From Cylindrobasidium torrendii FP15055 ss-10 (taxonomy: Eukaryota; Basidiomycota; Agaricomycetes; Agaricales; Physalacriaceae): 64,000 bases of DNA. The translations under genes were made by a program, and so were the position numbers. The notes beneath the pieces are model-generated. The model did no database searches. It saw only the letters and a program-made list of their open reading frames with translations, and was not told the origin of the DNA. Below, piece after piece: positions 10,653 to 26,089 of the stretch. Location: NCBI GenBank assembly GCA_000934385.1, contig KN880514.1, forward strand, positions 33,720 to 97,719, in the 5' to 3' direction. Numbering within the stretch: the stretch's first letter is position 1; the number at the start of each line of letters is the position of its first letter.

Positions 10653-12176
10653 AGTACGTAAGTTATGGAGATGGTAGTCTTGGTCGAAGGTTCAAACCGG
10701 CCCGATCTCGTGCTTCGCATGTGGATGTGATCAGCCCCCGCTCAATGCTGAGGCCAACACGATATGTACCTATCATAAGGCAATTATTATCAGTTTCGAC
10801 GAGGAGGAAACTTCAAGTTCTAACCCAGCCACTACTTCTACTGGGCTTCAACCCACCGGCAGTCTATCCACGCTAACGGCTTTGGCTTCAACATCTTTCA
10901 CTGGCCTGACGCAGAACGGAAAAATGCAACTCGAGAATACACGACTAAATGACTGCCATTCTGGTAATTACGCCTCGTCAGCCGTAAGTTCCTCCCCATC
11001 TCTTAAATTCCGCCCCATACTCCATCGCCCGGGATATACTACTACTTCTTGGATAGACCAACTGAACTGAGCTTCGTCCGTAGACAGTTTGTCCGTGGTA
11101 TTTTGGGAATATCACGATCTGAACCAATCATAAGAATATTGCGCAGATATATCACGCGCAAAAACAAACTCATGCGAGAATGCAGTTCGCAAAATGCAGC
11201 CAATTGACTGAATGCCTGGTAAAACGCTCGAGTCTTTCATCTGACTATGGCGCTCTCAAACATCCCGACGATGACCATCTCGGGTGGCACCACTTTCACT
11301 ATGCCTCCCAACGAAGACGAGGCCTTGCCCGCTCAAGACTGTTTGGATCACCGCCACATGAGGTAATCACAATGGAAAGAGAGGGATAGTAGATTCATTG
11401 TAACATTGAGCGATTTCTCGGGGCTGCGATGACGGTAAGCAACTCGAAGGTCATGAGTAGAGCCCCCTGCGCGCGCGTCGGGCACCAAAAGAAGGTCAAG
11501 ACAAAAGCCCAACAGATGCAGCTTCATGTTGAATATAACTGGTACTTCCAGGGTACTTCGCTGAGCAATCGAGCATGTCAGATATCCAGTAGACGCCCCA
11601 GACTCTGCTCTCAGAAAACTGGATGTGAATTGTCAAAATCATGGTCCTTAAGCCTGAGAATCATACGAGATAACATCTGGAGTTCTGACTCTGCCGACCG
11701 CCTCGCTCAGGCATCGCTATGATTCTCGACTCGCCCTTTTGAAAGATACTAACCGAGAAGAGAAGTACTCGTCGCGCTTCGAGTCATTGATACTTAGAGG
11801 CTTGACTATTGCAAACTCAGAGCAGCGACGTGGCGCCACGTCCCATAGACGTGGGGGAAAGTTGCGCTTTCGCGCAGAACGACGAGGTCAACGCCGCCTC
11901 ACAAATTACAATCTGCCATGGAATCAAACGTGCTGCATGTGGGTTGTCACGAGGAAACTTGATGGCAGCTTGATGGTGCGAGCGGGCCATCGTCGCAGAA
12001 AAAGATAGGGGCTGTTTTGCCGTGTTTGTTGCGGGTATGAAAGCGATGCCACGTCAGTCTGGGGTTTCTTCACGACTTCCACGTACACTCGTCCTGCGAC
12101 TGCAGTAAATTTCGCTCAAATACCTTCTCTCATCGACGTCCTTCCTTTCTCTCCACGTATACATCCACGTTTAACA
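10653..12176. other. Intergenic region upstream of HAC1
   Basis: 1.5 kb with no convincing coding sequence on either strand. The notable content is the ACGTGG motif cluster at 11827-12056. A short upstream reading frame starts at ATG 12038 and ends before 12177. Confidence 0.5.
11827..12056. promoter_or_regulatory. UPRE/CRE-like ACGTGG elements upstream of HAC1
   Basis: A perfect 16-base palindrome GACGTGGCGCCACGTC lies at 11827-11842, a second GACGTGGGGG at 11848-11857, and GCCACGTCA (reverse complement TGACGTGGC) at 12048-12056, 121 bases before the HAC1 ATG. TGACGTG(G/A) is the known core of unfolded-protein-response elements bound by Hac1/XBP1-type bZIP factors. Their clustering before a HAC1-like gene suggests autoregulation, which is known for several Hac1 proteins. 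This is motif matching only. Confidence 0.5.
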
Positions 12177-13290
12177 ATGTCTTCGCCATTCGTCAACCCC
12201 TCGACCATTTCTGAAGCAGGGCCCTCCAGGAAACGCGCTCGCGGCGACTTGTCGTCCGAGGAGCGCAAAGAGGCTCGCGCCCACCGCAACCGTATCGCCG
12301 CACAGAACTCTCGCGACCGTCGCAAGGCGCAGTTTGGCGCATTGGAGCGTCGCTGCGCTGAGCTAGAGGACGAGAACCGCCGCCTTCGCGCTGGCTATGG
12401 CGTTGTCGCGCCTGCGCCCGCCCCCGCCAAATCACCCGAACAAGAGGCGCGCGACCGCGAGAACGAGGAACTACGCGAACGTATCAAGACGCTAGAGAAA
12501 GGCTGGGACGCCGTTGTGAAGGCTCTTGCCGCCCAGGGCTTGCCAGGTACGTGTTTTGATTGCATCAACCGCACGCGCGTGGCTGACATGGCATCGCAGG
12601 ACTCGGCCTCGCGGCACCCGATAACGCCGCCGTGCCCTCCGTACCTGCGCCCACTATGACCCAAACCCCCGCTCCCGAACCACGGGCTGCCCACGAATTT
12701 CCCTCCATCGCGGCGCTCCCGATCTCCCCCGCACCTTCTCCACAAGCCGACGAGGACTCACCAATGTTTTCTGCCGACTCAACGACCACGACCGACTATT
12801 CCGGATCACCGTCACCGAAGTCTGAGCCCACTCGCCACCTAGCACGGGTGGCGACCACCATTGCGCCAGCAGTTCAGGCTGCGCCATTGGTGTCCCTGCA
12901 GCGGGTGGGCCCGACTCGTTTGACATATTCGCCCCAGTCTCTTTCCCGCAAGCTTCAACTTCTCAGGCCGCCGTCGCTCCAGTCGACGACGCCACAATGG
13001 AGAACCTCTTCCGCGAGATCCTTGCCACTTCGCCTGCCCCAGCGCCGGAAGCAACACTATTTGTTTCTGATGCGGCGGCGCCAGTGTCAAGACCGGAAGT
13101 GACATTTGATGAGATTGCGGGCAGGGAGGCGAACGGATCAGTGTTGTTGAGCGGCGCATCAGAGGAACTCGTTTGGCCGCAGGAGGAGCTGGATGTGCAG
13201 AGGTTGATCGATTTGCTGCCGATGGAGTCCCAATCCCTCGACACCTGGGATTTCTCGTTGGACTCTTCCAACTCCATCGGTGTATACTAA
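12177..13290 (+). CDS. HAC1: HAC1/XBP1-type bZIP transcription factor with unconventional intron
   Basis: The basic region RKEARAHRNRIAAQNSRDRR (about residues 30-49) followed by a leucine zipper is the Hac1/XBP1/HacA signature of the unfolded protein response. A conventional 53-nt intron (12547-12599, gtacgt/gcag) lies after the zipper. Exon 2 is open to TGA-type termination at 13102, but a better C-terminal half (DSFDIFAPVSFPQAS, MENLFREILATSPAP, ending DFSLDSSNSIGVY) lies in another frame up to 13290. Removing the 29 bases 12870-12898 joins the two frames exactly. Both borders read CNG^CNGN: CAG^CAGT at 12869/12870 and CTG^CAGC at 12898/12899, the motif cut by IRE1. Spliced exons 12177-12546, 12600-12869 and 12899-13290 give 343 residues. 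The unspliced mRNA would give a protein with a basic C-terminus, as for XBP1u. Confidence 0.9.
12870..12898 (+). other. Predicted 29-nt IRE1-type unconventional intron
   Basis: Borders CAG^CAGTT and CCCTG^CAGCG fit the CNG^CNGN consensus known from XBP1 and fungal HAC1 messages. The ends are not GT-AG, and a GT-AG alternative here would remove 30 bases and not change frame. The junction codon is GCA. Removing 29 bases is the shift needed to reach the conserved-looking C-terminal frame. I could not compute whether both sites sit in the required 7-base hairpin loops; the 3' loop CTGCAGC has a weak CC/GG-based stem, the 5' loop is less clear. Confidence 0.8.
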
Positions 13291-13879
13291 AACATTTCAC
13301 TCTCCTCTCTCATCTTCCTCTTGGATATTTTAAGGTCGACTATTCGTCTCTTCTCTGACGCACCACTTATTTAACAGTTTCGTCTCTTTTCCTCATCTCA
13401 TCTCGGAACCATGTATTTACTTCGCCTTACCTTGTTGTTTCTCTTTCGCATGTTTACTTGCACCTTTCGCCTATGACTTTTAGCTATCTCTTCGTCTTAC
13501 TTGATGCAGTCTCCCGTTCTCGGCATCTTCTCCCTTCGGGTCGAGATGTTTGCTGGGGGCGGTGAGCGCGTTGGGTGGCCTGGGCTATATCTTCTTCGAG
13601 TAGGGACATGGTATTCGTTACATTCGGAATAGTGACTTCTGGGTTTGCTGTGTTCTCCAGTGTGATACAGGATTGTCTGCAGCTCTCCTTTGGATGAACT
13701 GAAGGACTTTGTGAGGGGTTCTCAGAGCATCGTTGGCAACGCGAGAAAGTAGCGAGCTAGGCCTCATGAGAGAGATGTCTCATAGAAGTCACTGTCATTA
13801 CAAGCTAACGAGCCTCCGGCCCTCCGCGCCAGGTACTTTAGTCCAGTTCGACCAAAAATATTGTTGCGACAACCAGTGA
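13291..13879. other. 3' flank of HAC1
   Basis: Pyrimidine-rich sequence, probably HAC1 3' untranslated region in its first part. No gene seen. Confidence 0.5.
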
Positions 13880-13982
13880 TGCCCCCTGCAAGGCTCGAAC
13901 TTGCGACCTCAGGATCACTCAAGCCAAGCTTGAACATACAATTGTATGAGACCTGCGCTCTAGCCAACTGAGCCAAGGAGGC
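13880..13982 (-). tRNA. trnM: Elongator tRNA-Met (CAT) with 29-nt intron
   Basis: On the minus strand a full cloverleaf can be folded: acceptor GCCTCCT/AGGGGGC, D stem GCTC/GAGC, anticodon stem CAGGT/TCCTG with loop CTCATAA, variable AGGTC, T arm GCAAG-TTCGAGC-CTTGC and discriminator A. The anticodon is CAT. A 29-base intron sits after position 37, the canonical site for nuclear tRNA introns. The T-T mismatch at 31-39 is also found in the yeast elongator tRNA-Met, and the T-loop (not initiator-type AUCG) supports elongator identity. Mature length is 74 nt without CCA. Confidence 0.93.
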
Positions 13983-14624
13983 GTATTTGCGCCACATTAT
14001 AGTGATTACCCACCCCCCCCAACGTACTCGACGCTCGTAGTCTGGACTCTGCACTCTGGAAAACAAGCGTGACCTTCTCCTTCACTTCCTATGATCACGG
14101 TGGCGCCAACACGGAGAGATTAGAGTTCTGAATTGCTATTAGATACTGCCTGGAACCGGTGCTCCGCTTTTGCCTCTATCCCTCATCCGGAGCGATGTTG
14201 ACGAGGCAGATACCGCTATCCTGGTCTGCGGTACTTCGTACGCATACTACGCTCTGAATGGTTGCGCCGCAGCTGCGAGCCACCGACTGCACAGTTCCTA
14301 TTTTGATCCCGCCTCCGGATGTTGGGCCGCCAGGTACACTTTGAACCGCCTCGAGAACGCCGTACCTGCAGTGCCCGCCCTATCTTCTTCGATTTGTGTA
14401 CCAAGTCCGCGTCTGCTTCGCTGAGTGTACAATTCACGTGTCTTGACTACCCTGTGTGCTGCATCTCCTGGCAGGCGCAGAATAAATCGTGATGTCCGGT
14501 CTGTCGGTGTAATTGAGGCGCGCGTTTGACTGGACTGCTGCGCACCCAAAATGCATCCTTCTTATATGCGGGCTGTCTAGCCTTTTTTTGCAACGTCTGT
14601 TTTTCTCCTCCCTCTCCTCTCAAC
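13983..14624. other. Promoter region of the Pro/His-rich gene
   Basis: No gene seen. The last 40 bases are pyrimidine-rich, as is usual before fungal start codons. Confidence 0.5.
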
Positions 14625-25100: not shown

Positions 25101-26089
25101 TTGTCGATCCCAGCCATCCGCGGTCTTTTATAATCTCCATCTTCTGCCAGCCATCTGGCCCAGGGGCATGGGTTCGGACACTCAAAGTGACAGTATGGAA
25201 ACATTTAGGATTCCCAGACACACTTTTTTGTCCCATTAGGCACGCACGCGTGCGCCGGTTCGTATCCTTTTGTGTCGTGACGGGTCTTTCCTTTGTTGGC
25301 GCAAAACAAAGGATGCCCCCAAACAGGAAGGTTGAAAGCAAGGGCAACCACGGGCCGCGAGCATCCGTATAGTCCCAAAACATTCAGAGGTCACTTCGTA
25401 TACCTTCCTGGTACCCACAATTTTGACACACAAATTCTTCATTGTAAAGAATCCCCGAAGAATGTAGAATGCATGATGGTATCAGGGTTTGGGTCAGGAG
25501 GGAAAAACACTAAGAATGGAAGGAGAGCACGCCCCATCAGTCACACACACTACCGCGTTGTTTGCACATTGTGCGTCCGGGCTCTTATGCGGACGCTGCG
25601 CTTTTGTCCACAACTCATTGTAATACGTCAGGTAGCGTGCGCTTTGGGAGGATTTATCGTCGCGCACTGCGCGCGCGTTCCATTCCCGGTGTCTGTGCGA
25701 CAAGTAATCCGCGTGCTACCGTCCCAATGCCCAGAATCACTGTAGGATCCCGAGGCATCGATGCACCTAAGGCCCAAGATACGATGATGAATATGAATTT
25801 AGAGTTCATTTCATGGACGGGGCTCGGACTCGGACTCGGAGGACGGACTCAAGATGCGTGAAGCCCTCTGCCCGAGGGGCGGTACATCCGCACCTCTGTG
25901 TGCACTGTGCAGCTGTACCTATGATAGTGTTACTATGTTTGAAGCCATGCGTTCGATGCGAGGCGTCTGCGCTGTAAACCACTACAAGCGACCTGTGTAC
26001 CCTAAATTCCCAAGAGCATGACATGTACTTTGGTATTACGGGTACACCGAAAGCTGCGTAGGATACAACTTGTAGCATATAACCGGTGA
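25101..26089. other. Intergenic region behind the chitinase gene
   Basis: Open frames here are continuations of wrong chitinase frames. No gene seen. Confidence 0.45.

Follow-up and report, generated by a model that had tools for sequence, protein, structure and literature searches.

How does a message whose bZIP domain lies in one frame come to encode a conserved C-terminus that lies in another? The question is raised by a gene of the wood-decay fungus Cylindrobasidium torrendii, found in the 64,000-nt stretch of DNA analyzed here (the window; bases 33720–97719 of contig C84, in a genome of 29.3 Mb and 494 contigs). Coding starts at 12177 on the plus strand; exon 1 (12177–12546) holds the bZIP domain (12261–12389) and is followed by a conventional GT–AG intron of 53 nt (12547–12599), which is also removed in P0001, the protein of C. 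torrendii FP15055 ss-10 that is the top match for this gene among the protein matches listed. An earlier note on this DNA had described an upstream frame open to 13102 and a C-terminal frame open to 13290, and both are borne out once this intron is removed. The upstream frame runs to a stop at 13100–13102 and gives 290 residues with a different, basic C-terminus, as had been proposed for the unspliced form, and the second frame, which encodes the conserved C-terminus, is open from 12826 to 13290 and is accessible only through a frameshift or the removal of 3n + 2 nt. Bases 12899–13102 (plus strand) are dual-coding, serving the unspliced tail past the 3' site and, in the other frame, the C-terminus of the spliced form; basic RRK or RRR also ends the unspliced tails of several relatives.

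The gene is a HAC1/XBP1/Cib1/Hxl1-type bZIP gene. Its description in the earlier note as HAC1/XBP1-like with a basic region agrees with the Pfam profiles, as a bZIP domain is found in the N-terminal part (bZIP_1, PF00170, 40 bits; PF07716, 34 bits; both above cut-offs), and the locus scores best among the 11 PF00170 matches of the genome. A PDB sequence search (E up to 1) returned 27 bZIP-type chains, the best with E of 0.01, and Rfam yielded four unrelated matches, all under the gathering score. Further along the minus strand, a segment at about 13880–13985 resembles by eye an intron-containing tRNA gene; ARAGORN in bacterial mode called no tRNA in the window, this segment included.

The join between the frames was sought in relatives. 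Protein searches (best 120 of 452 matches and best 120 of 477) provided 154 distinct proteins that were examined, and a search with the region only, three proteins. Scans of viral contigs and prokaryote genomes gave no relatives, so that DNA-level covariation was not countable and relatives were judged from proteins. These proteins read the region in two ways. Unspliced-type relatives have TRHLAR(V/M)A...(S/A/P)LQRV, while in spliced-type relatives (e.g., P0007, P0018, and P0049) TRHLA is directly joined to AGG; RHLAAG is read in P0044 and P0049 and, among the annotated proteins, in P0007, P0056, and P0065. Both motifs of the unspliced type are present in 63 of the 154 proteins, the left one only in 39, the spliced junction in 12, and neither in 40, three of which (P0097, P0107, and P0113) carry motif variants. 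Under a looser rule, where the left motif suffices, 120 proteins are divided into 89 unspliced-type, 6 spliced-type and 25 others. Annotated genomes are the source of eight of the 12 spliced-type entries, and in these the junction may reflect a gene model rather than RNA. By a hand list, 31 of the 154 proteins are sourced only from jgi, lgn, or ena, and RHLAAG occurs in only eight of the other 123. In most of the Trametes-type models listed, the frames are connected at other points (e.g., ...TTDAPPGGSE), and the many annotated models that reach PAAGG or TTDAPPGG via such joins are presumably gene-model artefacts.

The most direct comparison is that of P0018 and P0098, both from the source "lgn" with contigs of 1344 and 1381 bp, lengths that suggest a cDNA origin. 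They share 187 identical residues ending at TRHLA, after which P0098 continues with RVATTERPSSVSLQ and its tail, and P0018, with AGGLELF and a different tail. At shift 2, a single DNA could encode both tails along the full 207 nt, compared to 2–3 nt at other shifts, and at most 23 nt when P0018 is compared to other unspliced tails; loss of 41 nt between TRHLA and LQ would account for the difference. In a second pair, P0153 and P0113 (145 of 164 aligned residues identical), the same scheme fits 32 nt, with 14 nt for the next best tail. For P0044, P0049, P0007, P0056, and P0065 no matched unspliced partner was found among the proteins examined, the best fits being 11–29 nt. Some jgi, lgn, or ena entries are located on longer contigs and may be genomic (e.g., P0048, 27,720 bp), and homology-guided joining of exons by a gene caller could in principle mimic a spliced form such as P0018.

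Both anchors are present in the window, TRHLARVA at 12830–12853 and SLQRV at 12893–12907. When the junction of the relatives is transferred to the gene, 56 nt (12843–12898, plus strand) are removed between exon 2 (12600–12842) and exon 3 (12899–13290, with the stop at 13288–13290), yielding 334 residues that align with spliced-type relatives through the C-terminus (IGVY here, VGVF in several of them). The protein sequences and the hairpin described below make us confident that IRE1 removes these 56 nt, cutting after 12842 and after 12898; we stop short of greater certainty because the cDNA origin of the short-contig proteins is itself deduced and a gene caller could imitate splicing. The intron lengths implied by the 63 proteins with both motifs range from 32 to 53 nt, and the 56 nt of the window exceed all of them; the intron of Ustilago maydis cib1 is 65 nt long.

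The predicted 5' cut falls between loop bases 3 and 4 of TAG^CACG (12840–12846), on a perfect stem of 8 Watson–Crick pairs (hairpin 12832–12854, plus strand). In the whole window, NNGCNNN loops on a Watson–Crick stem of at least 7 bp occur once on the plus strand, at this very cut, and once on the minus strand, the latter with a 9-bp stem at about 25298–25304. Synonymous recoding with the codon usage of the gene itself (20,000 trials) produced a stem of at least 8 bp in 0.095% of trials and of at least 7 bp in 0.83%. The folding program additionally pairs U1 and G7 of the loop, so that five unpaired bases are predicted rather than seven. The 3' site, CTG^CAGC (12896–12902, cut after 12898), conforms to the consensus in its loop letters, and its local stem is weak, with 2 Watson–Crick and 3 G–U pairs.

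The 5' loop violates the consensus CNG|CNGN at two positions, with U at –3 and C at +3. This would hold for any relative encoding HLAR if the cut is made at G^C, as the second base of a leucine codon is T and arginine codons start with C or A, and hence the conserved peptide suggests a rule-breaking 5' site in most relatives listed; the two TRHSARVA proteins are exceptions that could carry C at –3. Among 107 proteins with the left motif, 95 have TRHLARVA, six TRHLARMA, two TRHSARVA, two TCHLARVA, one ARHLARVA, and one TRQLARLA. In the last one H is replaced by Q and V by L jointly, at stem positions that face each other, a single suggestive case. Shifting both cuts by 1–2 nt gives an identical product or an identical protein; the G^C register was chosen because it is the known register of IRE1, and the exact position of the cuts is predicted to this extent.

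The earlier note had placed the intron at 12870–12898, 29 nt in length, with a spliced product of 343 residues. As computed, this deletion does join the frames into 343 residues, and both its borders (CAG^CAGT and CTG^CAGC) match CNG^CNGN. Yet the region 12600–13300 contains nine CNGCNGN sites, and four of them can serve as right partner of the left site at 12869 in joining the frames (deletions of 29, 32, 101, and 206 nt), three besides the one proposed; since such pairs are so easily found there, a frame-joining consensus pair says little by itself. The fold expected at the left site is absent, as it lies outside any 7-nt loop, has a stem of 0 bp even with G–U pairs allowed, and is partly paired in predicted folds. 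Moreover, the 29-nt version would retain the RVAT... segment, which is absent from spliced-type relatives. An excision of 29 nt is thus very improbable: the relatives' protein forms and the strong hairpin shift the 5' cut upstream by 27 nt, to the position after 12842, and the product becomes one of 334 residues. Two parts of the earlier proposal are well supported: its principle, that a basidiomycete message of the HAC1/XBP1 type is spliced by IRE1, and its 3' cut at 12898/12899 (CTG^CAGC), which is conserved and has fitting loop letters on the weak local stem. Its intron length is not supported, nor is its 5' cut at 12869/12870, which is unused in relatives.

Just as improbable is a conventional GT–AG intron of 62 nt (12905–12966), although it joins the frames and reproduces the public model P0001 (332 residues) exactly, two placements one base apart giving the same protein. 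This intron would delete GGPDSFDIFAPVSFPQ, which is similar to GGLDSLDLFAPINFPQ of P0002 in the downstream frame (P0002 being a gene model too), and would retain SLQR, absent from spliced-type relatives; P0001 is probably a gene-model artefact. Least probable of all is that the message is not spliced at this point, so that the gene makes the 290-residue protein and ribosomes enter the downstream frame by frameshifting or never. The greater frequency of the unspliced type (both motifs in 63 of 154 proteins vs. the spliced junction in 12) speaks for it. Against it, spliced-type forms are found in several lineages, their missing RVA...SL segment is explained by a deletion and not by a frameshift, and the genome encodes IRE1 and ligase domains.

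Indeed, locus L012 combines a kinase domain (E of 2.8e-37) with both Ribonuc_2-5A parts (1.4e-24 and 1.5e-16), the domain pair of IRE1; its lumenal part had no IRE1-specific Pfam match. A tRNA_lig_CPD domain on contig C80 (E of 7.8e-19) points to a Trl1-type tRNA ligase. With these components, the 56-nt reading would operate as follows. The unspliced message would encode the 290-residue bZIP protein with the basic tail; under ER stress, IRE1 would cleave the loop of the 8-bp hairpin after 12842 and the 3' site after 12898, and the Trl1-type ligase would join the exons with the loss of 56 nt. With the conserved C-terminal domain thereby acquired, the 334-residue product would be expected to switch on ER chaperone genes via the TGCCACGT core, and probably its own promoter as well.

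In Ustilago, Cib1 is described as binding promoters that share TGCCACGT, and the motif of pit1/2 as occurring also in the cib1 promoter (available text of PMC4836707). A motif scan for this UPRE core of Cib1 (PMC4836707) finds it in the promoter of the C. torrendii gene, within TGCCACGTCA at 12047–12056 on the plus strand, 130 bp before the ATG, and the palindrome at 11827–11842 (GACGTGGCGCCACGTC, with GCCACGTC on both strands) might form a second UPRE cluster. Genome-wide, the exact TGACGTGGC, taken as the UPRE, has 84 sites vs. 240 for the reversed control, and is found near two ER-type matches, a thioredoxin match on C12 and a DnaJ match on C203; the core TGCCACGT has 380 sites vs. 1007 for the reversed control. 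Within 1.5 kb upstream, counted to the first matched domain rather than to the start codon, the core is present at 6 of 16 chaperone-family loci, with about 0.3 expected in 24 kb, and at 5 of 14 (about 0.27 expected) when C12 and C203 are excluded. The loci were hand-picked and not fully blind, as the proximity of C12 and C203 to TGACGTGGC had been noted beforehand; the 16 comprise 7 of 8 HSP70 contigs, 5 of 9 thioredoxin contigs, calnexin, ERO1, 1 of 2 DER1 contigs, and 1 of 20 DnaJ contigs. The core-bearing ones include an HDEL-ending HSP70, a calnexin-type gene, and ERO1. Not all 16 encode ER proteins, and an ER-retention-like C-terminus is seen at three, the HSP70 loci L015 and L018 (with the site) and the thioredoxin-type L025 (without it).

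Folding of the region revealed a second helix, a 10-bp stem between the two exons, with the 5' arm at 12826–12835 and the 3' arm at 12901–12910 (plus strand). In the unspliced RNA, pair probabilities of the 5' hairpin vary with the segment folded, between 0.31 and 0.86, and those of the competing exon–exon stem are 0.21 to 1.0. Folds of 12800–12940 constrained to either structure have equal energy (–56.9), the hairpin-constrained one retaining the outer six pairs of the exon–exon stem; with the intron removed, the probability of the stem is 0.98–1.0. A helix as long is obtained in 89 of 5000 mononucleotide shuffles, so that it is only moderately unlikely by chance, and for this reason the exon–exon stem is offered as a proposal. 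It recalls the "RNA zipper" of XBP1, reportedly described by Peschek in 2015. Between the intron and the 100 nt before the ATG, taken to stand for the 5' UTR, the longest helix is 7 bp, equalled in 1665 of 2000 shuffles.

Taken jointly, these features suggest a reading for Agaricomycetes to which we would give an even chance: asymmetric IRE1 sites, a TRHLARVA conservation driven by the hairpin, and an exon–exon zipper. The Agaricomycete IRE1 would pair the standard 3' loop CUG^CAGC with a lineage-specific 5' loop UNG^CNC(G), breaking the –3/+3 rule, in which case motif searches choose the wrong site. TRHLARVA would be kept largely for encoding the 5' hairpin. The 5' arm would bridge the intron by forming 10 bp with the 3' exon, at an energy equal to that of the hairpin fold before cutting and dominantly after it, and so act as a zipper holding the exons for ligation, while introns drift in length between 32 and 56 nt.

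The predicted 56-nt intron places the unfolded protein response switch of mushroom-forming fungi, rarely shown by public annotation, on precise coordinates, and, should IRE1 cut the 5' site at the proposed position, its recognition in Agaricomycetes would depart from the yeast rule. Among the proteins, P0078 is an XBP1-like protein named from Trametes cinnabarina, which we take to be the same species as Pycnoporus cinnabarinus. This contrasts with the available text of PMC4101180, by which a clear Hac1 orthologue was not found in P. cinnabarinus. In the literature, as far as its texts were available, IRE1 splicing is described in Cryptococcus and Ustilago, and a mapped Agaricomycete intron was not found; the text seen of Cheon et al. 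(PMC3154848) mentions homologues of Hxl1 in Coprinopsis and Laccaria and gives no splicing data for them.

The closest parallel is HXL1 of Cryptococcus neoformans, likewise a basidiomycete bZIP gene, to which the C. torrendii gene is likened by the published description, IRE1 dependence having been shown experimentally for HXL1 (PMC3154848). In that account, as far as available, HXL1 has a conventional intron (55 nt; 53 nt in C. torrendii), followed downstream by an IRE1 intron whose 56 nt equal the length predicted in C. torrendii, and splicing gives its protein another C-terminus, as it would in C. torrendii (PMC3154848). The equal length is probably a coincidence, because the relatives span 32–53 nt. 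A difference is that HXL1 has CAG at both intron borders, while the C. torrendii intron would begin with CAC (available text of PMC3154848). Complementarity to the 5' UTR is not reported for HXL1 in the same text (PMC3154848) and was not found in C. torrendii over the 100 nt before the ATG, where the intron/5' UTR pairing of S. cerevisiae HAC1 attenuation lacks a counterpart. The cib1 gene of U. maydis is similar by description, encoding a Hac1-like bZIP protein from an IRE1-spliced message, and its target core TGCCACGT, reported also for its own promoter, is shared by the C. torrendii promoter (available text of PMC4836707). IRE1 introns of XBP1, HAC1, and hacA are given as 19–29 nt, and that of S. 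cerevisiae, as 252 nt (PMC3154848, text available in part). Yeast Ire1 enzymes cleave a substrate, CUG|CAGC, that is identical to the C. torrendii 3' loop CTG^CAGC, while the yeast Ire1 rule, CNG|CNGN or CNG|ANGN, is broken by the 5' loop (available text of PMC6037481). The C. torrendii gene has the domain and, as predicted from its frames, the frame switch of the HAC1/XBP1 type, and thus would share with metazoan XBP1 and ascomycete HAC1/hacA a bZIP message in which IRE1-type splicing changes the reading frame.
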